Positions 2,667 to 56,062 of a DNA stretch of 64,000 bases are shown in pieces. Every line of letters starts with the position of its first letter. Position 1 is the stretch's first letter. The stretch lies in the NCBI RefSeq assembly GCF_011761565.1, contig NZ_JAASRM010000001.1:2604139-2668138 (forward strand). The letters are read 5' to 3'. This DNA comes from Rhizomicrobium palustre (GTDB taxonomy: Bacteria > Pseudomonadota > Alphaproteobacteria > Micropepsales > Micropepsaceae). The position numbers and the translations under genes are program-made. Below the pieces are notes generated by a model. It had not been told where the DNA came from. It saw only the letters and a list, made by a program, of their open reading frames with translations, and did not search any database.

Positions 2667-4388
2667 TCACCGCCAGTTGGTTTTGGCGAGTTCGACCAGC
2701 TCGTTGCCTTTGCCGTTGATGATCGCGCGCATCATGTAGAGGCTGAAGCCTTTGGCTTGTTCCAGGGTGATCTGCGGCGGAATGGCGAGTTCCTGTTTCG
2801 CGGTCATGACATCGACCAGGACCGGCCCCGGATGGGCGAGGGCCTCGTCGAGCGCGGCGGGCAGAAGTTTCGCATCTTCCACGCGCAGCGCCTTGATGCC
2901 GATAGCCTCGGCCACTTTGGTGAAGTCTGGACTGTTGAGGTCGGTATCGTCGGAGATATAGCCGCCCGCCTTCATTTCCATCGCCACGAAGCCAAGGCTA
3001 CGATTGTGGAAGATGACGATCTTCACCGGCAGATCGAGCTGGCGCAGCGATAGGATATCGCCCATCAGCATGGCAAAACCGCCATCGCCGCACATCGCGA
3101 TGACTTGGCGGTCCGGTGCGACAGCTTGCGCGCCGATGGCTTGGCACATGGCATTGGCCATCGAGCCGTGATTGAACGAGCCGATCAGCCGCCGCTTGCC
3201 GTTCATTTTCAGATAGCGCGCCGCCCACACCGTCGGGGTGCCGACATCGCAGGTAAAGATGGCATCCTCGCTGGCTTTCTCGCTGATCAGCTTTGCCAGA
3301 TATTGCGGATGAATCTGCCCGATCTCGCTTTTCTCCGTGGCGAGGTCGTCGAGGTCTTTGCGCGCCTTGGTATAGTGGTCCAGAGCGGTGGCAATGAAGC
3401 GGCTGTCGTCTTTGGCTTTCAGCTTGGGCAGAAGCGCTTCGATCGTCGCTTTCACATCGCCGATGATGCCGAGATCGACCTGGGTATGCGCACCCAAAGC
3501 TTCCGGCCGCACATCGATCTGCGCGATCTTGGCCTTGCCGGGATAAAAGGCGCGATAAGGAAAGGCCGAGCCCAATATAAGAAGTGTGTCGGCAGCTTCC
3601 ATGGCGTGATAGCCGGAAGAAAATCCGATCAGCCCGGTCATGCCGACATCATGGGGGTTATCCCATTCGACATGTTCCTTGCCGCGCAGCGCATGCACGA
3701 TAGGGGCCTTCAAGGTTTCAGCAAGGCGCAGCACCTCGTCATGCGCGCCTGCGCAGCCCGCACCGCAGAGAAGCGTGGTCTTGCTCGAGGCGTTCAGCAT
3801 CGCCGCCAGCGCGTCGAGATCTTGTGTTGGAGGCAGGGTGATGCCCGGCTCGGGCGTATTCCAGCGCACTTCGATCTCGCCCGGCATGTCTTTCAGCGCG
3901 ACGTCGCCGGGCAGCACGATCACCGCGACGCCTTTTTTCAGGATGGCGGTACGCATGGCGATTTCCAGGACGCGCGGCATCTGTTCCGGGTTGGAAATCA
4001 GCTCGCAATAGACGCTGCATTCGCGAAACAGCTCTTGCGGATGGGTTTCCTGGAAATACCCCGAGCCGATTTCCGCCGAAGGAATGTGAGCGGCTATCGC
4101 CAGCACCGGCACATGGCTGCGATTGCAATCGTAAAGCCCGTTGATGAGATGCAGATTGCCCGGCCCGCAGGAACCCGCGCAGACTGCGAGCTTGCCCGTC
4201 AAATGCGCCTCGGCGCCCGCAGCGAAGGCAGCCACTTCCTCATGCCGCGTGCCCATCCAGCGGATTTTCTGCTGGCGGTGCAGGCTGTCGGAAAGTCCGT
4301 TCAGAGAGTCGCCCGTAACGCCCCAAATGCGTTCGACACCCGCCGCAGAAAGATGACGGGCGATATAATAAGCAATGCTTTCGGCCAT
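2667..4388 (-). CDS. poxB: Pyruvate dehydrogenase (quinone), thiamine-dependent
   Basis: A 573-residue thiamine-diphosphate enzyme, essentially the length of E. coli PoxB (572). It has the N-terminal TPP domain with catalytic Glu in TRHEEVAAF, a central FAD domain, and the C-terminal TPP-binding [11 protein letters not shown]...HN motif. The C-terminal tail [14 protein letters not shown]...AKTNW closely resembles the PoxB tail that binds membrane lipid, which separates it from acetolactate synthases. It should oxidise pyruvate to acetate and CO2 and pass electrons to ubiquinone at the inner membrane. The next gene on this strand is a flavoprotein 177 bp upstream. Confidence 0.92.
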
Positions 4389-4564
4389 GATGGGTCACCT
4401 GGATCGCGCTGTGAACATCCTGAACGCATATCCTTCCCGCAGCGCCGAACTTATCTAGAACGATTTCGGCGTCTTTATCGCTGTTACGCCCGCGCGCAGG
4501 CTCGCTGCAACAAAAGAGGCTGCATGGCTGCCGTGCGGCTGAGGTATCGCTCGCGACGCGGAAG

Positions 4565-16040: not shown

Positions 16041-16114
16041 CCCTCTGGTGCCTCTGCTTGCGGTTTGCCCATACGATGCACTAGCTTTGCGCCTGATGGG
16101 AAACAGGAGTGCGC

Positions 16115-17134
16115 GTGGAAACTGTCACCGAATATGTGTCGGGTGATCTTATCCAGGCTGCCGCGCGCGAAAGCCGCGATCTACAAGCGCCGAATCCGTT
16201 CATTTATTGGTGCGATCTCGTGGCGTCTGTCAGCATCGGCTACGGCGCGCTTGCCGTACTGATACTGTCGGAACCGCCATTGCTGAAGCTTGGCGCGGGC
16301 GTTGTTGCAGTGCTGGCGCTTTATCGCTGCATTAGTTTCATTCACGAACTAACGCATATCAAAGCTGGGGCCTTGCCCGGGTTTCGCATCGCCTGGAATC
16401 TTCTCATCGGCGTGCCGCTGCTTTTGCCGTCCTTTCTCTATGAAGGTGTGCATAGCCTGCATCACGCCAAGACACGCTATGGCACCGAAGAAGATCCTGA
16501 ATACCTGCCGCTCGCCCATATGGGGCCGTTCAGTGTCCCGCTATTTCTCCTGGTCTCGCTTTTGGCGCCGCTCGCCTTGCTCTTGCGCTTTGCGATCCTC
16601 GCGCCGCTCAGCCTTGTCGTGCCTGGTCTTCGCAAGATCGTCGTGGCGCAGGCTTCCGCGATGACGATCTCGCCGACTTTCAAACGAAAGCCGCCAGAAG
16701 GGCGTGATTGGATTTTCTGGGAAGCCGCGGCCTCGCTTTGGGCCATCACGGCGATCACGCTTGCGGTCACTGGCGTCATCGCGCCCAGCCAATGGATAGT
16801 GCTGCTGGGCGTTGTGTCTGCCGTCGCCTTCCTCAATCAACTGCGCACGCTGGTCGCCCATCTTTGGGAGAATGACGGCGGGCAGATGACCATCACTGCG
16901 CAATATCTCGACAGCGTGAATGTGCCGGGCGGCTTTCTGCCGGAGCTCTGGGCGCCGGTGGGCTTGCGCTATCACGCGCTGCACCATCTCTTGCCCGGCA
17001 TTCCCTATCACGCACTGCCAAAAGCGCATCGTAGGCTCATCGCGGCGCTGCCTGACGGTTCGGAGTATCACCGCGCCAATTACGCGGGGCTCTTGCGTCT
17101 CACTTGGCGCCTAATGCGGGCCGGGTGGCGGTAA
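16115..17134 (+). CDS. Membrane fatty acid desaturase family protein
   Basis: A 339-residue integral membrane diiron protein with four to five hydrophobic helices and three histidine boxes: HELTH (~residue 78), HSLHH (~115) and HALHH (~290). These bind the two irons in fatty-acid desaturases and related hydroxylases. An additional HLWEND segment precedes the third box. GTG at 16115 is preferred over GTG at 16109 because AGGAG ends at 16109. The substrate may be an acyl lipid or a carotenoid; that cannot be resolved from sequence. It converges on cysQ. Confidence 0.86.
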   Translation: METVTEYVSGDLIQAAARESRDLQAPNPFIYWCDLVASVSIGYGALAVLILSEPPLLKLGAGVVAVLALYRCISFIHELTHIKAGALPGFRIAWNLLIGVPLLLPSFLYEGVHSLHHAKTRYGTEEDPEYLPLAHMGPFSVPLFLLVSLLAPLALLLRFAILAPLSLVVPGLRKIVVAQASAMTISPTFKRKPPEGRDWIFWEAAASLWAITAITLAVTGVIAPSQWIVLLGVVSAVAFLNQLRTLVAHLWENDGGQMTITAQYLDSVNVPGGFLPELWAPVGLRYHALHHLLPGIPYHALPKAHRRLIAALPDGSEYHRANYAGLLRLTWRLMRAGWR

Positions 17135-17283
17135 TCTGGCCGGCAGATGAAATCGCCTCTGCCGCGCTTGGCGCAGAGCCCGCGCCTTCCCATATGAGAA
17201 AGGCTGTTTGACCGCGCCGGGAAATGAGCCGCCTTCCTCCCATCCTTAAGGGGGGAAATCACTCGAACAATTATATTGCACGC

Positions 17284-17377: not shown

Positions 17378-18175
17378 TCAGAGCCCTTTGGCGATGAAAT
17401 GCGGGTTCGCGAAGCCTGGCTTGCCATAGAGGAAGGGCTTGCCTTCCACCGTCGTGACCGCGCCGCCTGCGGCCGCAAGCACGGCATGGCCCGCCGCCGT
17501 ATCCCATTCCATGGTGCGGCCATGGCGGGGATAGATATCCGCTTCGCCCGCCGCGATCAGGCAGAATTTCAGCGAGGAACCTGCCACCACGAAATTCTTG
17601 ATCTGATAGGCGCCAAGATATTCGGCGGTCTTGCCGTCGTTATGAGAGCGGGAGATGGCGGCCACCAGCCCATCCTTGCCGGGCTGACGCACGGTGATGG
17701 GATGGGCTTCGGCGAAGTCCGGCGCGCCGCCGGGCGGGCAGGTCATGGCGAAGGCGCCCGAAAGGCTCTCGCCGAAGAAGATGCGCTCCTTGGCCGGGGC
17801 ATAAACCACGCCGCGCACGGGCTTGCCTTCCACGATTTCGGCGATATTGACCGTGAACTCGCCATTCTTGTTGACGAACTCCTTGGTGCCGTCGAGGGGA
17901 TCGACCAGGAAGAACCGCTTGCCCACTTTCGGGGTCCGTCCTGCCGCCACTTCTTCTTCGGCCACCACCGGCACGTCGGGGGCGAGCTGGGCCAGCCGTT
18001 TCAGGATAAAGCGCTCGGCATCCACGTCCGCGGCCGTCACCGGCGACATGTCCTCTTTGCGGGTCGCCGTGATCTCGTCGGTGTAGTGCTCCAGGATGAT
18101 GGCCCCGGCGTCATAGGCGATGCGGGCGAGCGCCCGGAGCATGGGTGAAGAGGCGTGGGCGTGATTATCGGTCAT
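17378..18175 (-). CDS. cysQ: 3'(2'),5'-bisphosphate nucleotidase (CysQ type)
   Basis: A 265-residue inositol-monophosphatase superfamily enzyme. It carries the metal-binding acidic cluster AEEEVAAG, the signature VDPLDGTKEFV and the C-terminal EWDTAAGHAVL. The GTKEF variant and length point to CysQ rather than inositol phosphatase. CysQ removes 3'-phosphoadenosine 5'-phosphate formed in sulfate assimilation. The ATG at 18175 overlaps the stop of the upstream DUF3553 gene as ATGA, so translation is coupled. A longer open frame to 18319 lies over that gene and is rejected. Confidence 0.9.
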   Translation of the reverse strand: MTDNHAHASSPMLRALARIAYDAGAIILEHYTDEITATRKEDMSPVTAADVDAERFILKRLAQLAPDVPVVAEEEVAAGRTPKVGKRFFLVDPLDGTKEFVNKNGEFTVNIAEIVEGKPVRGVVYAPAKERIFFGESLSGAFAMTCPPGGAPDFAEAHPITVRQPGKDGLVAAISRSHNDGKTAEYLGAYQIKNFVVAGSSLKFCLIAAGEADIYPRHGRTMEWDTAAGHAVLAAAGGAVTTVEGKPFLYGKPGFANPHFIAKGL

Positions 18176-22316: not shown

Positions 22317-22469
22317 GACGTTCTCCTGGTTTGCGCCAAGAGCCGGCACGCGGGATATCCCGCATGAACTCCAAAGATGGATCATACTTCCCGCGACGAC
22401 TCCAATACTGTCGTCGCGACGGTTTCCCCCGCAGTTTTCGGCGCACCCCGGCCGGAAACAGGACGACAG

Positions 22470-22612
22470 CATCAGGCAGGTCTCCTGGCTTTCCGGGTCT
22501 TCGTCCGCTTCCGCCTTCCCGGGATATCCCAGTGGCGTTTGGAAGCGTTCTCGCCGGGCACAGTTGCGGGGGCAGCCGCTTTCGCGTTCCCTAAACCTGA
22601 CACCTGGGGCAC
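22470..22612 (-). promoter_or_regulatory. Cobalamin riboswitch controlling btuB
   Basis: Read on the minus strand, the hallmark B12-box elements appear in order: GGGAA, GCTGCCCCCGCAACTGT, then CCACTGGG, GGGAAGGC and finally GCCAGGAGACCTGCC. All core motifs of the AdoCbl aptamer are intact. The aptamer ends about 155 bases before the btuB start, leaving room for an expression platform. It should switch btuB off when cobalamin is plentiful. Confidence 0.95.
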
Positions 22613-22693
22613 TGCTAGACCGCTTTTGGCCCTGGGGTCAACCGCCGGACGTAGACGTCCGAAAATGGCCAGACGAGGCGTGTCTTTTGCGCC

Positions 22694-48249: not shown

Positions 48250-48640
48250 CTCCTATAGCTCTCACTCTCAATCCTTTCCGCCGTCTGTCGCAAAGCTTAA
48301 ATCCCCCTCCGACACTTGAAGATCGCGCTTCCGCTTCCCACCTCAAATAAAGCTGTTTGAAAGATGGAGTGGCTTGGCAACACAAGCGGAAGGCGGGCCT
48401 TCGCGGGGCGCGTGATCCGCAGACGCGCGACATATACAGGGCTTTGATGCGTGCTCGCGCACGTTCTTGTCCTGCTCGGGAGGCATTGATGTGAAGAGCA
48501 GAGACGACGCGGCTTGTGGGAAGGTGAAGGTGTCCGTTGAGCGCACACACGCTCGCTGCTCGCCATAGCCTTCAGGGGGCACCCATCAAAGCGGACTGGC
48601 TACGCGGAATGTTACGCGAAACCGAGCCCGCTTTGCGCGT
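48250..48640 (-). repeat. ~400-bp repeat, copy A (inverted relative to copy B)
   Basis: Starts one base beyond the acyltransferase stop (48642) and reads in that gene's direction. A 94-bp core (48384-48477) is 92/94 identical to the reverse complement of copy B (55834-55927). It carries three predicted hairpins, one with a GCGA tetraloop. A further stem CAAAGCGG/CCGCTTTG (48587-48594 / 48628-48635) is at the gene-proximal end. Open frames within are probably incidental. It occupies most of the 428-bp gap 48214-48641. Confidence 0.8.
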
Positions 48641-48641
48641 A

Positions 48642-49859
48642 TTACCGCGCGGGCTTCAACAATCTTCCCCTCAGCCAGGCATTGGCCGGCTTTTCGACGC
48701 CGTAATACAAGAGCGCGCCCCAGCCAATGCAGAGCAGCACCAGCAGCACCGGTTCTCCCCACCAGGCCAGCTCGGCAAAGCGATGGCCGAAGATCAGCGT
48801 GTCATCCGGCGGATACCAGCGCTGTTCGAAATAGCGGATAAGCTGCAGCCAAAAGGTCTGGCCCATATAGATCGCGTAAGACCATTCGCCGAGGCGCAAG
48901 GGCAGTTTGGTGGATAGGCCGCGCGCCAGAAATCCCTTGTCAAAGGCGAGCACGAAAATCAGCACATAGAGCGCGGTGGCGAACCAGAGATCGCGCACCG
49001 TATGCGACCAGCCATTGCGATAGGTCGCCCAGAAGAGATAGGCGAGGGCCACTGCCTGCAGCGCCGAGAAAACCCAAGCGGGAAGCTTGTCGGCGCCCAC
49101 TTTCTTGGCATCGCGAAAGAGCACCGCCATGCCAACGCCGACCGCGAAGCCCGCCATGCCGCGGAACATGCCATCGCGATAGGTGATGTCGAGGCCGTGA
49201 TGACTGTTGAGGGCGAGAAGGGTCAGCCAGGAAAGGCCGAAGCCGATCAGCGCCACGCCCATCCACCAGCGCCCGCGCGCCAGAACAAGATAGATCGGAA
49301 AAAGCAGGCAGAGCAGGAACTCGACCGAGACGAACCACGACGCGCCATTCCAAGTCAGCCAGGGAAACAGATTCCAGCCTTGCACCAGGAACAGGCTCGC
49401 CACAAAGCTCGGCCAGGTGTTAATCGGCGGCCAAGGCTGGTGATAGATCGAGAGATATCCGCCGAGATAGGAAAGCTGGTTCAGCGTCCACATCAAAAGC
49501 AGCATCGAAATCAGGGTGACGAGATGCACCGGGTAAAGCCGGGAAAGGCGTGCCTTCAGGAATGGCAGGATCGCTGTGCCACGCAGAAACTCGCCCACGC
49601 GCGCGCCATAGACATGCACCAGGATAAAGCCGGAGAGGGCGAAGAAGAACTCCACCCAGAGATAGCCGCGGCTGACGGCAAGGTCGAACCATTTGGCGCA
49701 GCCGAAAAAGGAATGGAGCCAATCGATCTGGCACTGAGGCGTATCGACGCCGCGATAGCCATGCCCCTCGCAGAAATGGAACAGCACCAGGATCAGCGGC
49801 GGGAAGGCGCGCGCGCCCGACAGGGCTTTGATCTCGGCGGGGCGGTGTTTTTCGCTCAT
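48642..49859 (-). CDS. Acyltransferase 3 family membrane protein
   Basis: A 405-residue inner-membrane protein with about ten helices. The N-terminal EIKALSGARAFPPLILVLFHF is the acyltransferase-3 (OafA/YrhL) start, with the catalytic His in LFHF. WFVSVEFLLCLLFPIYL and YAIYMGQTFW are later signatures. It probably acetylates or succinylates a surface polysaccharide or glycan. ATG at 49859 (MSEKHRPAEIK) is chosen over 49916. Its stop is followed directly by repeat copy A. Confidence 0.88.
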   Translation of the reverse strand: MSEKHRPAEIKALSGARAFPPLILVLFHFCEGHGYRGVDTPQCQIDWLHSFFGCAKWFDLAVSRGYLWVEFFFALSGFILVHVYGARVGEFLRGTAILPFLKARLSRLYPVHLVTLISMLLLMWTLNQLSYLGGYLSIYHQPWPPINTWPSFVASLFLVQGWNLFPWLTWNGASWFVSVEFLLCLLFPIYLVLARGRWWMGVALIGFGLSWLTLLALNSHHGLDITYRDGMFRGMAGFAVGVGMAVLFRDAKKVGADKLPAWVFSALQAVALAYLFWATYRNGWSHTVRDLWFATALYVLIFVLAFDKGFLARGLSTKLPLRLGEWSYAIYMGQTFWLQLIRYFEQRWYPPDDTLIFGHRFAELAWWGEPVLLVLLCIGWGALLYYGVEKPANAWLRGRLLKPAR

Positions 49860-50014
49860 CGGCGGGAAGGCTCCGGAAAAGGCGGCAACCCTGACGTCTG
49901 GCGGCCAATATCTCAAGCGGTCTCTGCGCGGAAATTGGGCAGGAGAGGTGCATTGACCGCGCGCTATTCCCCAGCAAATAGTTGCGGCGGTATTCGCAAG
50001 GGGTGGACGGCATT

Positions 50015-51274
50015 ATGGATTTTGGGGGCCTGCATCTGCAATCCCTGCTGGGGATCGCGACCATTCTGGCGCTGGCCTGGCTCTTCTCGGAGAACCGCCG
50101 GGCTTTTCCGGTCCGCACCGTGTTGGCCGGGCTCGCCATGCAAGTCGCCCTGGCGCTGCTCTTGCTGAAAGTGCCGCTGGCGCGCGATACGCTCTTTGCC
50201 CTCAACGGGCTGGTGGCGGCGTTGACCGAGGCGACCAAGACCGGCACCTCTTTTGTCTTCGGTTATCTCGGCCAAGGCGATGCGCCCTTTACCATCACCC
50301 AGCCCAACGCCTTCATCAATTTCGCCTTCGGCGTTCTGCCCATCATCATCGTGATCTCGGCGCTGTCGGCCCTGCTCTGGCATTGGCGCATTCTGGCGCT
50401 CCTGGTGAAGGGTATCGCGGTGGTGCTGCGCCGGTTTCTCGGCATCGGCGGCGCGGTCGGCCTTGGCGGTGCGTCGACGGTCTTCCTCGGCAATGTCGAA
50501 GGGCTGCTGGTGATCCGGCCCTATCTTGCCAAGCTTAACCGCTCTGAGCTGTTCATTGTGTTTACGGTCGGCATGAGCGTGGTGGCGGGCACGGTATTTG
50601 TGCTCTATGCGACGATTCTGAAGCCGGTCCTGCCGGGCGCGCTCGGCCATATCCTGATCGCGTCGATCATGTCGCTGTTCGGCGCCATCGTGGTGGCCCG
50701 GATCATGGTGCCTGGGGAAGCCGCGACCGATACGGTCTCGGAAAGCGAGATGAAATACCGCTCCAGCATGGATGCGGTCTCGCATGGTACGGAAGTGGGA
50801 CTTCGCATTTGGCTGCAGATCATCGCCATGCTGATAGTCGTCACCGCGCTGGTGGCGATGGCCAATATGATCCTCGCCAACGCTCCGCATGTTTTCGGCG
50901 CGCCCTTGACGCTGCAGCGTTTGCTCGGCTGGGTCTTTGCGCCGGTAGTCTGGCTTTATGGCGTGCCTTGGAGCGAGGCGGTGACAGCGGGCAGTCTGCT
51001 CGGCACTAAGACCATCCTCAACGAGCTGGTGGCTTATATCGATCTCACCAAACTGCCCGCGGGTGCGCTTGATCCGCGCTCCACCCTGATCGTGGTCTAT
51101 GCCATGTGCGGCTTCGCCAACTTCTCGTCCGTCGGCATCGTCATCGCTGGCATGAGTGCGCTGGAACCCGGCCGCCGCGATGAAGTGGTGCCGCTGGTGA
51201 TGCGTTCGTTGCTCGCAGGCACCATGGCCAGCGGCCTCACCGGGTGCATGATCGGCCTGCTCCCGGTGACGTGA
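50015..51274 (+). CDS. Concentrative nucleoside transporter (CNT/NupC family)
   Basis: A 419-residue membrane protein. CNT landmarks are LLGIATILALAWLFSENRRA, FAFGVLPIIIVISALSALLWHW, GTKTILNELVAYIDL and YAMCGFANFSSVGIVIAGMSAL. It imports nucleosides with Na+ or H+. One oddity: the substrate-binding segment, usually GxTEAPLLIRPYL-like, reads FLGNVEGLLVIRPYL, which has lost the usual Gln/Thr and Pro. Substrate range may therefore differ. ATG at 50015 fits the family start. Confidence 0.9.
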   Translation: MDFGGLHLQSLLGIATILALAWLFSENRRAFPVRTVLAGLAMQVALALLLLKVPLARDTLFALNGLVAALTEATKTGTSFVFGYLGQGDAPFTITQPNAFINFAFGVLPIIIVISALSALLWHWRILALLVKGIAVVLRRFLGIGGAVGLGGASTVFLGNVEGLLVIRPYLAKLNRSELFIVFTVGMSVVAGTVFVLYATILKPVLPGALGHILIASIMSLFGAIVVARIMVPGEAATDTVSESEMKYRSSMDAVSHGTEVGLRIWLQIIAMLIVVTALVAMANMILANAPHVFGAPLTLQRLLGWVFAPVVWLYGVPWSEAVTAGSLLGTKTILNELVAYIDLTKLPAGALDPRSTLIVVYAMCGFANFSSVGIVIAGMSALEPGRRDEVVPLVMRSLLAGTMASGLTGCMIGLLPVT

Positions 51275-51286
51275 AGCTGCAAAGGC

Positions 51287-51943
51287 TTAGTGCGTGTGGG
51301 TTTCGAAGGCGGGGAACAGGATGTTGTTCTCCAGGTGAATGTGGGTCATCAGATCGTCGGCGAATTTGATCAGACCCGCATTCAACGCCCGCCAGGTGGG
51401 GCAGGCGCCTTCCGGGGCGGGGATCGCGAAAGGCTCAATCGCTTTTAGCTGATCACCCGCCTCGATATGCTCGGCACGCATGACCGCGATGGGGTGATGG
51501 ATGAAGGGGTTGCCGCCCGCCTGCATCATCGGGAACAGCACCTGTTCTTCCTTCTGCATATGCGCGTCGAGTTCGTCGGTCAGGCGCTGCAGCTTTTCGG
51601 CCAACCCGTTCGGCGCATCGGGGCGGGCGCCATGCACCGCTTCCACGCGCTTGGCGAGGCGGATCAGTTCCGGCAGCTCACGGCGATGGACATCGTGAAA
51701 GCGCGTCAGGATATGGGCGATCAGCGCGCCGGTTTCGCGCGGCGCCTCGTCATTTGAAGGGGCAATGGCGGCGAGTTCGGCGGCGATGCTGGCAGCATCC
51801 AGCCCCTTGGCAGAGGCCGCCTCGGCCAGCGAAACCGCTCCGCCACAGCAGAAATCGAGCTTATATTTGCGGAACACGGCGGTAGCGCCGGGAATTTCCG
51901 TGGCAAGATGGCTGAGCGTCTGGGTCTGATATGCGCCGGTCAT
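51287..51943 (-). CDS. ytfE: Iron-sulfur cluster repair diiron protein (YtfE/RIC/ScdA)
   Basis: A 218-residue protein. The N-terminal ScdA domain has DFCCGG and the C-terminal hemerythrin-like domain has the ligands H-x-VHRREL, HMQKEEQVLFP, RAEHIEAGDQL and HIHLENNILFP. The protein repairs iron-sulfur clusters damaged by nitric oxide or oxidants. The full set of His/Glu ligands is present. A palindrome 48 bp upstream of its start (51991-52007) is the natural operator candidate. The uracil-DNA glycosylase gene is divergent. Confidence 0.92.
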   Translation of the reverse strand: MTGAYQTQTLSHLATEIPGATAVFRKYKLDFCCGGAVSLAEAASAKGLDAASIAAELAAIAPSNDEAPRETGALIAHILTRFHDVHRRELPELIRLAKRVEAVHGARPDAPNGLAEKLQRLTDELDAHMQKEEQVLFPMMQAGGNPFIHHPIAVMRAEHIEAGDQLKAIEPFAIPAPEGACPTWRALNAGLIKFADDLMTHIHLENNILFPAFETHTH

Positions 51944-51990
51944 GTCGGTGCTCTCTTTCCTGAATTCCCGAGCAGGGTGGAAGGATTAAG

Positions 51991-52007
51991 TGGTATATGC
52001 AATACCA
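51991..52007. promoter_or_regulatory. Palindrome TGGTAT-N5-ATACCA between ytfE and a glycosylase gene
   Basis: TGGTATATGCAATACCA has exact 6-base arms around five bases. It is 48 bp before ytfE and 43 bp before the glycosylase ATG. Rrf2-type regulators such as NsrR or IscR commonly control ytfE through AT-rich palindromes. The regulator is inferred. Confidence 0.55.
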
Positions 52008-52049
52008 GATTAAACCGTGCGGCAATCTGCGCTAAACCCTGAAGGGAAC

Positions 52050-52652
52050 ATGGACAAAGACCTCGACAGCCTGCTTGCTGAAATCCGTGCCTGCCGGATC
52101 TGCGAAAAGCACCTTCAATATGGCGCTCGCCCGGTCATTCACGCCAGCGCCAAGGCGCGTATCTGCATCATCGCGCAAGCGCCCGGTATACGGGTGCATG
52201 AGACGGGCATTTCCTTCAACGATCCTTCCGGTGATCGTTTGCGTGAATGGATGGGGATCGATCGCGACGTCTTCTATGACGAAAGCAAAATCGCCATCAT
52301 CGGTATGGGCTTTTGTTTTCCCGGCTATGACGCCCATGGCGGAGATTTGCCGCCTCGCAAGGAATGCGCTGAGGCATGGCAGGCACGGCTATTCGCAACC
52401 CTGCCGAAATTCGACCTCACCCTGTTGATCGGCAGCTATGCTTTCAATTGGCATCTGAAAGGCCGCACCAAGAAAACCGTTTCGGAGACGGTGGCGGCGT
52501 GGCGGGAGTATACGCCCGGCATCATCCCGTTGCCGCATCCCTCCTGGCGCAACAACTCCTGGCTCAAGAAGAACCCGTGGTTTGCGGCGGAGCTTTTGCC
52601 CTATCTGCGCCGCCGGGTGAAAAAAGCCCTCAATGTTTCTTCGCCGGGCTGA
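52050..52652 (+). CDS. Family 4-type uracil-DNA glycosylase with iron-sulfur cysteines
   Basis: A 200-residue protein with the UDG motif 1 IIAQAPGIRVHE and motif 3 PLPHPSW. Four cysteines at 15, 18, 89 and 106 match the spacing of the [4Fe-4S] ligands in family 4 UDG (Thermus: 14, 17, 85, 101). It likely removes uracil from DNA. The ATG at 52050 follows AAGGGA by only two bases; a GTG at 52017 is an alternative. It overlaps the 3' end of the convergent esterase gene by 23 bp. Confidence 0.85.
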   Translation: MDKDLDSLLAEIRACRICEKHLQYGARPVIHASAKARICIIAQAPGIRVHETGISFNDPSGDRLREWMGIDRDVFYDESKIAIIGMGFCFPGYDAHGGDLPPRKECAEAWQARLFATLPKFDLTLLIGSYAFNWHLKGRTKKTVSETVAAWREYTPGIIPLPHPSWRNNSWLKKNPWFAAELLPYLRRRVKKALNVSSPG

Positions 52653-54648
52653 TGGCCATCTCGAAGGGCACTGCGGGCAGGCCGTCGGAATTGACCAGAT
52701 TGCAGAGCGGGCTATCGGCCCAGCAGAAGCGTACGCTGGTGGCTTTGGGATATTTGGCAGCATCCAGCTTCACGCTATTGCCAGTGACGAAACCATCGAC
52801 AAAACCGCATTGGCTTTTGGCATCGCAGAGGCTGAAGCCGACGGCGCGGTCCCATTCACGCGCCTCCAACCCCTTCGCGGCATGATCGAAGGTGATGGTC
52901 ACGGTCTTGCCTTTGCGGCTGATGGAGGAAGGTTCGGGGCTTTGGGCGACGATGTCCTGGCCATAGATGAATTTGCGTGCCAGCAAGGAAAGGCGGCGTC
53001 CCACCTCTTGTTTTGCTGCAGGATGGATCACATCAGGCGAACCAAGATCGATGGTCACCGCAAGCCCGGTATTGGGTACGGTATCCACCACGCGGCGCTG
53101 CACTTCGCGCAATGCCGCCCAATTGGAGGCCTCCGGTTTAGCGGTGGCCGGGCCAAAGCTCGTCAATTGCACGATATAGAACGGCATTTCAGCGCCAAAA
53201 CGCACGCGCCAATCGGCAATCATCGCACGCAAGAGCCGGTCATATTCCTTGGGCTGCCCGGCATCGGTTTCGCCTTGATACCAAAGCGTGCCGCGTATTT
53301 GCGTCGACCCCAAAGGCAGGATCATGCCGTTATAGAGGGTTGAGACTCCGAACTGATTATACCAGGGCATCCAAGGCTCGCCGCCGCTGGTCTTGGCAGA
53401 TGCTTTCCAGTGCCAGGGACCGTTCAGCGCGATGCTCTTTCCGTCATTGGTCTTCAGGCTCATCTTTTCACCCGGCCAGGCCGGGCCTGCACCAGCTTGA
53501 ATAGCTATGGCGATGTTATTCTGCCCTGCATGCAGCACACCCGGCTCGATCTTATAGTTGCGGTTCTTGTCATAAGCATGGGCCGCACCCACCAAGCTGC
53601 CATTCACAAAGGTGAGGTCTTCGGAATCGATTGGGCCGAGGCTCAGCGTGGCCGCAGCTTGCGCCTCAGCTTCGGTCAACGTGATGGTCTTGCGCAGCCA
53701 GGTGATGCCGTTGAAGGTTTTCAGCTCCGGCACATTCCATAAGCGCCAGGTGCCGGTGACATCGTGGCTCGCCCAGCCTGAATCATCAAACCCTGGGTCG
53801 CTATAGGCTTTCACATTGGGATCATGCGCGTCGAACCAGGCCCGCGCGATGTCGCGCCATTTTTCTTCCGCAGCCTTGGGATCCTTGGCATAGGTCTTGG
53901 CGATCTCAAGCCGCTCTTCATAGCCGCCGATCTCTTTCAGCTTGTCATTGCTGATCCAGGCTTGGATCGCTGCGCCGCCCCAGGCATCTTCGATCAACCC
54001 CACCGCCACGCCGGCCACGGGCTGAATGTTGGCGCCGAAATAATAACAGACGGCTGAGAAGTCCTTTGCTGTCTCGGGCGTGGTCACCGCCCAGCTTGCA
54101 TCAGCGCCAAAGCTTTCGCGCGGCATGGGGCTCGAAAAGCGCTGCACGTGAAATAAGCGCAGCTTCGGATTCTGCGCGGCCCTCAGCTCGCTATCGTAAT
54201 TGGTGGCAAGGCGCAGCGGCATTTCCATATTGGATTGGCCTGAGCAGAGATAGACATCACCGATCATGATGTCTTTCACGGTCTGGGTTTCACCCGCGGT
54301 GCTGGTCGCTGCAATCGTGTAGGGTCCGCCAGCTTTCATTGCCGCAAAGCGTACCTCCCAGCGACCGGCCTCATCTGCGGTGGCGCTGGCCTTCTCGCCA
54401 GCGAAAGTCACGGCCACGGTTGCGCCGGGTGCGGTCTTACCCCAGATCGGAACGGGCTTATCCCGCTGCAGCACGGCATGGTCCTGGAAGGTGGTGTAAA
54501 GCAGGGTCAGGGGCCGGGGCGGGAAAACGTCCTTGTCCTTCACTACCGCGACGACAGGCGAGGGCGACATCAACGGGGGAATGGAGATCGAGCTGCAAGC
54601 CGAAAGCATGAAGGCCGCGCCGAGCACTGCCAGGGCAGACTTGTCCAT
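52630..54648 (-). CDS. Sialate O-acetylesterase-like lipoprotein (SGNH fold)
   Basis: A 672-residue exported protein. The N-terminus is a lipoprotein signal (FMLSACSS lipobox). The esterase part has catalytic Ser in CSGQSNMEMP, then a galactose-binding-like insert (residues ~290-420) and DLGSPDVIHPAAK with the Asp/His pair. The family deacetylates sialic acids or O-acetylated polysaccharides such as xylan. ATG at 54648 is the family start; an ORF to 54729 lies across the divergent gene. It overlaps the UDG gene tail by 23 bp. Confidence 0.86.
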   Translation of the reverse strand: MDKSALAVLGAAFMLSACSSISIPPLMSPSPVVAVVKDKDVFPPRPLTLLYTTFQDHAVLQRDKPVPIWGKTAPGATVAVTFAGEKASATADEAGRWEVRFAAMKAGGPYTIAATSTAGETQTVKDIMIGDVYLCSGQSNMEMPLRLATNYDSELRAAQNPKLRLFHVQRFSSPMPRESFGADASWAVTTPETAKDFSAVCYYFGANIQPVAGVAVGLIEDAWGGAAIQAWISNDKLKEIGGYEERLEIAKTYAKDPKAAEEKWRDIARAWFDAHDPNVKAYSDPGFDDSGWASHDVTGTWRLWNVPELKTFNGITWLRKTITLTEAEAQAAATLSLGPIDSEDLTFVNGSLVGAAHAYDKNRNYKIEPGVLHAGQNNIAIAIQAGAGPAWPGEKMSLKTNDGKSIALNGPWHWKASAKTSGGEPWMPWYNQFGVSTLYNGMILPLGSTQIRGTLWYQGETDAGQPKEYDRLLRAMIADWRVRFGAEMPFYIVQLTSFGPATAKPEASNWAALREVQRRVVDTVPNTGLAVTIDLGSPDVIHPAAKQEVGRRLSLLARKFIYGQDIVAQSPEPSSISRKGKTVTITFDHAAKGLEAREWDRAVGFSLCDAKSQCGFVDGFVTGNSVKLDAAKYPKATSVRFCWADSPLCNLVNSDGLPAVPFEMAISPAKKH

Positions 54649-54712
54649 TCCGCGTTCCCCTCTAAACTTGATCTTCTTATTTGCGTCGCGATTTAATACC
54701 GGGGGCTCTCCG

Positions 54713-55651
54713 ATGGCCAGATTGGCCACCTACCTTCTCTGCGTCATTGTGGCGTTTTCGCTGCAATCTTGTGCGCCCGTGACCGCGCCCATGGGATTGG
54801 AGCAGGCGTCCCCGATTTTACATGAAGATTTTTTCACGACCAGCGACGGTCTTTCCTTGCCCTATCGCCATTGGGACGCGGCCAAACCAAAGGCCATCAT
54901 CGTGGCCCTGCATGGCATGAGCGATTATTCGCGCGCCTTCGAGATGCCGGGGCCTTATTGGGCGAGCGAAGGCATCACCACCTATGCGTATGATCAAAGG
55001 AGCTTTGGTAAATCGCCCAACCCCGGAGACTGGCCGGGCGCGCAAGCAATGCGCCAGGATTTTTGTGATTTCATCGAGGCGGTGCGCGCGCGCCATCCCG
55101 GGGTGCCGGTCTTCGGTCTCGGCGAAAGCATGGGCGGGGCGGTGGTGCTCACCTCTCTCACACAGAATCATCAGCCACATTTGGATGGCGTGATCCTGGT
55201 CGCGCCTGCGGTGTGGTCGCGCTCCGATATGCCGTTTTACTATCGCGTGGCGCTATGGCTCACAGCGCATACATTTCCCGCGATGACCGTTTCCGGCAAG
55301 GGGCTGAAAATCTGGCCATCTGATAACATCGAAATGCTGCGCCAGAATGCGCGCGATCCTCTGTTCCAGAAACAAACCCGCGCCGATGCGGTGTGGGGTC
55401 TTGTCAATTTGATGGACGAAGCGCGCAAGGCACCGCTTGCGCTAAAATCCACACCGCCGATGTTAGTGGTCTATGGCGAGAAGGATCAAATCATTCCACG
55501 CGCGCCCACCGAAGCGGTGGTGAAAGAACTGGGCGCCCGCGCCGAGGTGCATGTCTATCCCAAAGGCTATCACATGCTGCTGCGCGATCTTTCCGGTAAA
55601 ATTGTTTGGAAAGACATCGAGGCCTTCGTGGAAAAGACCAGCGCGAAATAA
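54713..55651 (+). CDS. Alpha/beta-hydrolase lipoprotein (monoacylglycerol-lipase-like)
   Basis: A 312-residue alpha/beta-hydrolase. A lipoprotein signal ends at LQSCAP. The catalytic motif GESMGG (Ser), Asp in VVYGEKDQIIP and His in GYHMLLRD form the triad. HG at LHGMSDYSRAF is the oxyanion loop. It should hydrolyse lipid or small esters at the outer or inner membrane face. ATG at 54713 is preferred to 54533. Divergent from the esterase by 64 bp. Copy B of the long repeat begins at its stop codon. Confidence 0.86.
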   Translation: MARLATYLLCVIVAFSLQSCAPVTAPMGLEQASPILHEDFFTTSDGLSLPYRHWDAAKPKAIIVALHGMSDYSRAFEMPGPYWASEGITTYAYDQRSFGKSPNPGDWPGAQAMRQDFCDFIEAVRARHPGVPVFGLGESMGGAVVLTSLTQNHQPHLDGVILVAPAVWSRSDMPFYYRVALWLTAHTFPAMTVSGKGLKIWPSDNIEMLRQNARDPLFQKQTRADAVWGLVNLMDEARKAPLALKSTPPMLVVYGEKDQIIPRAPTEAVVKELGARAEVHVYPKGYHMLLRDLSGKIVWKDIEAFVEKTSAK

Positions 55652-56062
55652 ATATGCGCAAAGCGGGCTTGGCGAACAAGTCCGCTTTGATGGGGGCCCC
55701 CTCAGGCTACGGCGAGCAACGAGCGTTGTGATCAGACAGCGCTCAACAGACACCTTTGCCTTACCACGGACCGCTTCGCCTCTGCTCATTTGCGATTCAT
55801 GCGCCAGTGCGGGCACGATCCCAGCTACGGCTTGAGCAGGACGAGAACGTGCGCGAGCACGCATCAAAGCCCTGTATATGTCGCGCGTTTGCGGATCACG
55901 CGCCCCGCGAAGGCCCGCCTTCCGCTTGGCTCGCCAAGCATCTCCATCTTTCAAACAACTCAATTTGATTTGGGAAGCGATCACGCGACCTTCAAGGCTC
56001 TGGCGCGCGATTTAAGCCGCGCGACAGAAGACGGAAAGGATTGCGGGTGAGAATTGGAGGTG
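55650..56062 (+). repeat. ~400-bp repeat, copy B
   Basis: Begins at the stop of the hydrolase gene, in the gene's direction, mirroring copy A at the acyltransferase. The core (55834-55927) folds as three hairpins: CGTGC-GCGA-GCACG at 55848-55861, GCGCGT/ACGCGC at 55883-55903 and GAAGGC-CC-GCCTTC at 55909-55922. Only two of 94 positions differ from copy A (55843 and 55889), both outside the stems. A stem CAAAGCGG/CCGCTTTG (55659-55666 / 55682-55689) opens the element. No coding gene is proposed here or up to 56182. Confidence 0.8.

Follow-up and report, generated by a model that had tools for sequence, protein, structure and literature searches.

RpoH-dependent small RNAs of the Alphaproteobacteria include CcsR and StsR of Rhodobacter, and the CU-rich small RNAs of the Cuckoo/CcsR family are characterized by a CCUCCUCCC-type loop. 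SOS (LexA)-controlled small RNAs, such as IstR-2, are found in the Enterobacteria, while untranslated RNAs headed by a boxA sequence occur in rRNA operons and CRISPR arrays. An element which can be compared with each of these is present in two inverted copies, A and B, in a 64,000-nucleotide (nt) stretch of the Rhizomicrobium palustre genome (contig NZ_JAASRM010000001.1), hereafter the window, and in a third copy, C, elsewhere in the same genome. We consider it likely, on the basis of sequence comparison, that A and B, together with C, represent copies of one gene, which encodes a structured non-coding RNA of approximately 300 nt and is transcribed towards a convergent neighboring gene.

The element shares a predicted stress-sigma promoter, an intergenic location and a non-coding character with CcsR and StsR, but differs in its length (~300 nt in A, B and C), in its GC hairpin at convergent gene ends and in the absence of any match near the Rfam threshold. 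Neither A, B nor C contains CCTCC within its body, so that the CCUCCUCCC-type loop expected of a Cuckoo/CcsR CU-rich RNA is lacking. A LexA-type promoter box, as in IstR-2, is found in the copies of related genomes, but here the box is of the form GTTC-N7-GTTC, the family is multicopy and structured, the promoter is also RpoH-like in many copies, and A, B and C are without the box. As in boxA-headed RNAs, a boxA stands at the RNA start in a wider set of promoters, and the boxA of the rRNA operons of this genome is GTTGTTTGACATAG; the boxA in this set, however, lies directly past a heat-shock-type promoter, and A, B and C carry sequences that are only boxA-like (GCTGTTTGA/GTTGTTTGA). Bacterial interspersed repeats, including miniature inverted-repeat transposable elements (MITEs) and whalefall-1, are likewise multicopy, intergenic and hairpin-rich, but lack the candidate promoter and long covarying fold of the present element, and whalefall-1-like matches were located at other places.

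Copies A and B form the sole inverted repeat found in the window at a seed of 14 and a length of 30 (48315-48477 and 55834-55996; 163 nt, 90% complementary), and their sequence and coordinates agree with the original prediction, which had been made from this stretch of DNA alone. BLAST with B as query recovered A at an E-value of 2.2e-79, which is beyond chance, and a third full-length copy, C (G000:C1:3964497-3964928; E-value: 8.2e-60; 72% identity to B), so that the total of two copies first reported becomes three. Each copy had been described as starting at the stop codon of a gene. This applies to A and B but not to C, where the stop codon of the convergent gene is ~399 nt away and a predicted small codirectional open reading frame lies in between; adjacency to a stop codon is thus observed for two of the three own-genome copies. 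The A/B core substitutions at positions 55843 and 55889 and the near-identity of the core (98%) were borne out, but the core shows no special conservation in C. Across the 95 gap-free columns with at most two A-B differences, A and C differ at 23 (24%) and B and C at 21 (22%), compared to 81 (30%) and 72 (26%) of the other 272 columns, respectively. So long a near-identical A-B stretch was not observed in any of 5,000 shuffles, and the core (55834-55928, minus strand; 95 nt here, two differences) is best read as a gene-conversion patch, through which the inverted copies may have been homogenised. The GCGA tetraloop predicted for the strand originally proposed is present in A, B and C, while among seven further copies that align at this position the majority have a different loop.

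The putative RNA gene of copy A (~290 nt) extends from 48349 to 48638 on the plus strand, opposite to the direction originally proposed, with its limits placed according to the promoter and hairpin and its identity resting on homology and covariation. It is preceded by an RpoH-type -35 element (CTTGAA; 48315-48320) and a -10 element (CCCACCT; 48337-48343) which resembles the hsp20 promoters of this genome, followed by the partial boxA match GCTGTTTGA (48352-48360) at the presumed RNA 5′ end. This region is matched by a promoter-boxA model (R2, described below) at 48315-48360 (E-value: 6.3e-9). A GC-rich, terminator-like hairpin is located at 48588-48634, corresponding to helix 4 of the 3′-domain alignment, in which six of 14 pairs show two-sided changes, and is met from the opposite side by the stop codon of an acyltransferase gene at 48642. 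Copy B (~307 nt; 55656-55962, minus strand), delimited on the same grounds, has the corresponding -35 element CTTGAA (55991-55996), -10 element CCCAAAT (55968-55974) and boxA-like GTTGTTTGA (55951-55959) at its predicted 5′ end (R2 match 55997-55951; E-value: 6.2e-5), while its GC-rich terminator-like hairpin (55660-55689), supported by sequence and the 3′-domain structure, meets the stop codon of a hydrolase gene at 55651.

The original prediction had proposed searching for the repeat in related genomes. With a sequence-only model built from A, B and C (R3), 13 of the 69 genus genomes searched gave a total of 29 matches (E ≤ 0.01), three being A, B and C and 26 lying in 12 other genomes. The best matches outside the R. 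palustre genome (G000) were obtained in genomes G039 (2e-18), G033 (2.8e-18), G007 (4e-12) and G019 (1.7e-9), and the five main genomes contain two to six matches each. Eighteen copies were analysed, comprising the three own copies and all 15 matches of these four genomes. The remaining 11 matches, from eight other genomes (E-values 3e-4 to 0.0075), were left out, although some retained copies (to 0.0062) score below part of them. Three further copies found by pattern (L184, L187 and L189), as well as L191 at a contig edge, stand outside these counts. BLAST of B against 100 genomes (its own, 59 of the same genus and 40 of the class) gave only a 27-bp match in genome G015 outside G000; located in apparent coding sequence, it was read as chance. 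The exact core 22-mer had no match in a genome contig collection from which the own and very near genomes were possibly excluded. An exact 27-base conserved-loop pattern, to which A, B and C do not conform, occurs in 12 stretches among 84,980 species genomes, in four Rhizomicrobium genomes only, namely Rhizomicrobium electricum DSM 21034 and the alphaproteobacterial assemblies UBA1301, bin_33 and nzgw541. Comparison supports a family that is conserved across five Rhizomicrobium genomes, R. palustre included, and has covarying helices and a conserved 3′ hairpin.

No Rfam family came near its gathering cut-off for the element in scans of the window, the B region and 17 loci, which did not include every copy, and weak matches below gathering scores were discarded. 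The same database places a cobalamin riboswitch at window positions 22458-22615 (minus strand; RF00174; 86.6 bits). Judged by title and the start of the abstract, the literature on boxA with RpoH/sigma32, NusB with non-coding RNA and CRISPR arrays does not describe the element, nor, among the matches listed, does that on SOS small RNAs and CCUCCUCCC/RpoH small RNAs, while no paper on Rhizomicrobium non-coding RNA was found. The most likely identity is a structured RNA gene family with stress promoters which is not represented in the libraries searched.

Compensatory changes support a folded RNA, as originally suggested. They were assessed in a 3′-domain alignment of 16 of the 18 copies (A9; a near-duplicate and a copy whose 3′ end diverges were dropped) and a 5′-part alignment of ten (A10; copies of the type whose 5′ part could not be aligned were dropped). 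Two-sided changes affect 14 of the 39 pairs in the 3′ domain (shuffled mean 9.1; equalled in 5/500 shuffles) and 13 of the 32 pairs in the 5′ part (shuffled mean 8.2; 9/500). Counted by alignment cells, two-sided changes number 40 and 24, compared to 13.5 and 10.1 in shuffles (0/500 each). Of the 3′-domain cells, 86.5% are paired against 39-49% with the partners slid, a comparison that favors the structures, which were derived from the alignments on which they were tested.

The promoter elements were recognized through a short motif that A, B and C share, close to one of their ends, with a fourth locus of partial relatedness, and from which a wider set of loci was obtained. With up to three mismatches allowed, this motif has eight occurrences in the own genome and the reversed pattern none. 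The motif is found in three of the 69 genus genomes, R. palustre included. It was at one stage regarded as an RNA loop, and a surrounding stem (A4) drawn by eye showed no two-sided changes, with shuffles scoring equal or higher; the loop was replaced by a promoter and boxA reading on the other strand, where the motif corresponds to CTTGAA-N16-CCCA followed by a boxA-like sequence. An earlier motif model (R1; 17 seeds including A, B and C) matched 18 of the 69 genus genomes at E ≤ 0.05, many weakly, with 25 matches in G000, not all of them convincing. Sixty-two RpoH-boxA loci were taken up and 59 measured, two misplaced matches and one locus without a boxA match being set aside. A spacer of 16 was measured in 47/59 loci and a boxA 10 nt past CCCA in 45/59, counts in which at least four mis-anchored loci (L094, L097, L106 and L116) are included as printed. 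The promoter-boxA model R2 was built from 46 loci without A, B and C. Applied to 69.5 kb at E ≤ 10, it gave four matches, namely A, B, C (E-value: 1e-4) and a further locus at 17166-17222 (plus strand; E-value: 7.7e-10), and the matches of A, B and C run opposite to the direction originally proposed. Among 387 genomes of the class, five had matches at E ≤ 0.001, with 14 in the own genome, nearly all of them model-building sequences, and one weak match in each of four genomes outside the genus. CTTGAA-N15-17-CCC(A/C) occurs three times on both strands of the window, two of the occurrences being A and B.

Both hsp20 loci found in the own genome carry comparable promoters without boxA (CTTGAA-N16-CCCAC and CTTGAA-N15-CCCAC), which were read by eye after a script pattern had missed both. 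The groES locus, the only other heat-shock gene compared, has an element which we liken to CIRCE and not an RpoH-type promoter. The promoters of A, B and C (the last with CTTGCA) look to be of the RpoH (sigma-32) type seen in the hsp20 genes and are candidates for heat-shock control. For rhizobia, the RpoH motif appears as cTTGaa-N16-CgATaT in the portion of PMC4167512 consulted. The boxA, for which background was taken from part of PMC4807359, is present as GTTGTTTGACATAG in both rRNA leaders of the own genome.

Several observations were made at the wider promoter set. The element at 17166-17222, downstream of which the sequence is unlike that of A and B, is flanked by genes for a fatty-acid desaturase (16109-17134; PF00487) and for a member of the inositol-monophosphatase family (17378-18175; PF00459). 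Six RpoH-boxA elements are located ~220-570 nt upstream of codirectional genes, presumably ppc (L101, L114 and L124; three genomes), prfB (L091 and L109; two genomes) and ruvC (L073), and may represent stress leaders. At L072, L075, L087, L094 and L114, a C-rich stretch followed by a CGACAAACAATGATCAAG-like sequence occurs within ~330 nt past the promoter. Palindromes were observed at L021 (984-1183), L036 (1556-1609) and L025 (817-873), the latter two with whalefall-1 matches below the gathering score. Downstream of a gene we take to be ftsZ-like, the L021 palindrome, which resembles that of L025, interrupts an RpoH-boxA unit.

A different control is indicated for the copies in related genomes. 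A GTTC-N7-GTTC box directly follows the -35 element in 14 of the 15 copies outside G000, while the remaining copy has GTTC-N7-GTCT. Several of these promoters have an RpoH-like -10 element (CCCACATC), others a sigma-70-like one (TATACA), and a stretch further upstream is partly conserved. The LexA half-sites were not found in A, B and C, which retain RpoH-type elements, nor was the box present in any of the 62 RpoH-boxA loci, A, B and C included. GTTC-N7-GTTC is given as the Caulobacter LexA consensus in the part of PMC12700426 consulted. The box precedes recA in all three genomes checked (G000, G039 and G007), and its frequency in the window is one per 64 kb. The 15 homologues thus look to have a LexA/SOS operator, exact in 14 and imperfect in one, and are predicted to be under DNA-damage control. 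In the window itself, a LexA-type box (GAAC-N7-GAAC) is located at 4447-4461, ~60 nt upstream of a predicted minus-strand gene (2667-4388).

A number of results weigh against a separate, promoter-driven RNA gene. The loci from which R2 was built were found with R1, whose seeds include A, B and C. The -35 element of C is CTTGCA, agreement of the boxA of the three own copies with the model ends at GTTTGA, no boxA was seen in the homologues and the promoter class differs between copies. C does not lie at a gene end, and the U-tracts after the 3′ hairpin are weak. Pair types in the 5′ part are not clearly above shuffles (87/500), and single sequences fold on the proposed strand with a stability not clearly above that of shuffles (z-scores of -1.4, -0.5 and -1.9 for A, B and C). 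On the opposite strand B reaches a z-score of -2.4 and a 3′-domain structure fitted to that strand also shows two-sided changes in 16 of 36 pairs, while column-shuffle z-scores are equal for the two strands (-2.7/-2.8 and -9.9/-10.0).

The distribution of the copies could also be explained by a non-autonomous, MITE-like mobile repeat which inserts beside the ends of convergent genes, next to a terminator or stop codon, its RNA being incidental. The copies lie at different genes, at two to six per main genome. In 14 of the 18 (A, B and twelve others), no more than 140 nt separate the predicted RNA 3′ end from the stop codon of a convergent gene, the exceptions being C, G019a, G019c and, at a contig edge, G019b. 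The 140-nt cut-off was picked after the distances had been seen, and the genes were called with a crude codon-usage script, apart from the hydrolase gene at B, which the script missed and which was read separately. Under a coin-flip model 14/17 corresponds to P = 0.006, a value which overstates the positional bias, as several sites are orthologous. Furthermore, two G007 copies share 94.8% identity over 617 bp, and a third shares 97.1% over 384 bp with one of them, all at different sites. The mobile palindrome targeting gene ends that had been proposed is consistent with this bias and with the dispersed copies, but sites which are orthologous between species (G039a/G033a and G007d/G019d), the compensatory changes and the conservation of the promoter and upstream stretch speak against it. 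Viral contigs contain no match to the exact 27-base pattern, and plasmids and phages gave no blastn match with one homologue (L166). Although G007d and G019d share a gene location, two G007 copies elsewhere reach 95-97% identity to G007d, which, together with the A-B patch, suggests gene conversion among copies. A mobile repeat is considered unlikely.

Far less probable is the structured 3′ untranslated region (3′-UTR) of the acyltransferase and hydrolase genes that was one of the original suggestions. The repeat does start within ~5 nt of both stop codons, the near-symmetric hairpin could terminate transcription from either side, and the fold of B and the two-sided changes on that strand, noted above, are in keeping with it. 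C, G019a and G019c, however, have no gene in that sense ending within 140 nt, the promoter elements at the far end face the other way, and A and C fold no better than shuffles on that strand (z-scores of 0.1 and 0.0). As column-shuffle z-scores are equal and two-sided changes occur on both strands, direction rests on the wobble cells and the flanks. GU cells outnumber AC cells by 71 to 20 on the strand proposed here, whereas a structure optimised for the opposite strand has 56 GU yet 46 AC cells, and the A/B/C consensus fold is -83.3 kcal/mol with five broken cells compared to -68.9 kcal/mol with 13. The candidate promoter (R2) and terminator-like 3′ hairpin (helix 4) also follow one another in the expected order in the copies, although the U-tract is weak. 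The direction first assigned was thus probably wrong, and a gene of its own, read the other way, is preferred, with confidence slightly lowered by the two-sided changes on the strand originally proposed. An open frame of 27 codons common to the cores of A and B might suggest a small-protein gene, but this is scarcely credible, as the frame of C, read from the corresponding ATG, encodes unrelated residues and is broken after 16 codons, the homologues have indels at the frame and no ribosome-binding site is evident.

If A, B and C are separate RNA genes, transcription would be switched on by heat shock in R. palustre and by DNA damage in its relatives, and the product would act as a stress-induced regulatory RNA. 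The hairpin would end the RNA and possibly also serve the convergent gene, while in A, B and C the boxA-like sequence at the 5′ end may recruit NusB/S10 and shield the untranslated RNA from Rho. A more far-reaching proposal, to which we attach little probability, is that each genome of one Rhizomicrobium branch has a heat-shock regulon of ~20 untranslated RNAs headed by boxA, of which A, B and C are members, with the boxA soaking up or redirecting NusB-S10 under stress and so throttling rRNA antitermination, and with the same RNA being SOS (LexA)-controlled in sister species.

If borne out, the element would represent a lineage-restricted, multicopy family of folded RNAs whose control appears to differ between SOS and heat shock in sister species, and as such would provide a natural experiment on the rewiring of stress RNAs. 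At many loci a heat-shock-type promoter stands directly before an rRNA-type boxA, which makes antitermination beyond the rRNA operons a question that can be put to the test. At A and B, two convergent units may furthermore share one hairpin, an arrangement open to misreading as a 3′-UTR.

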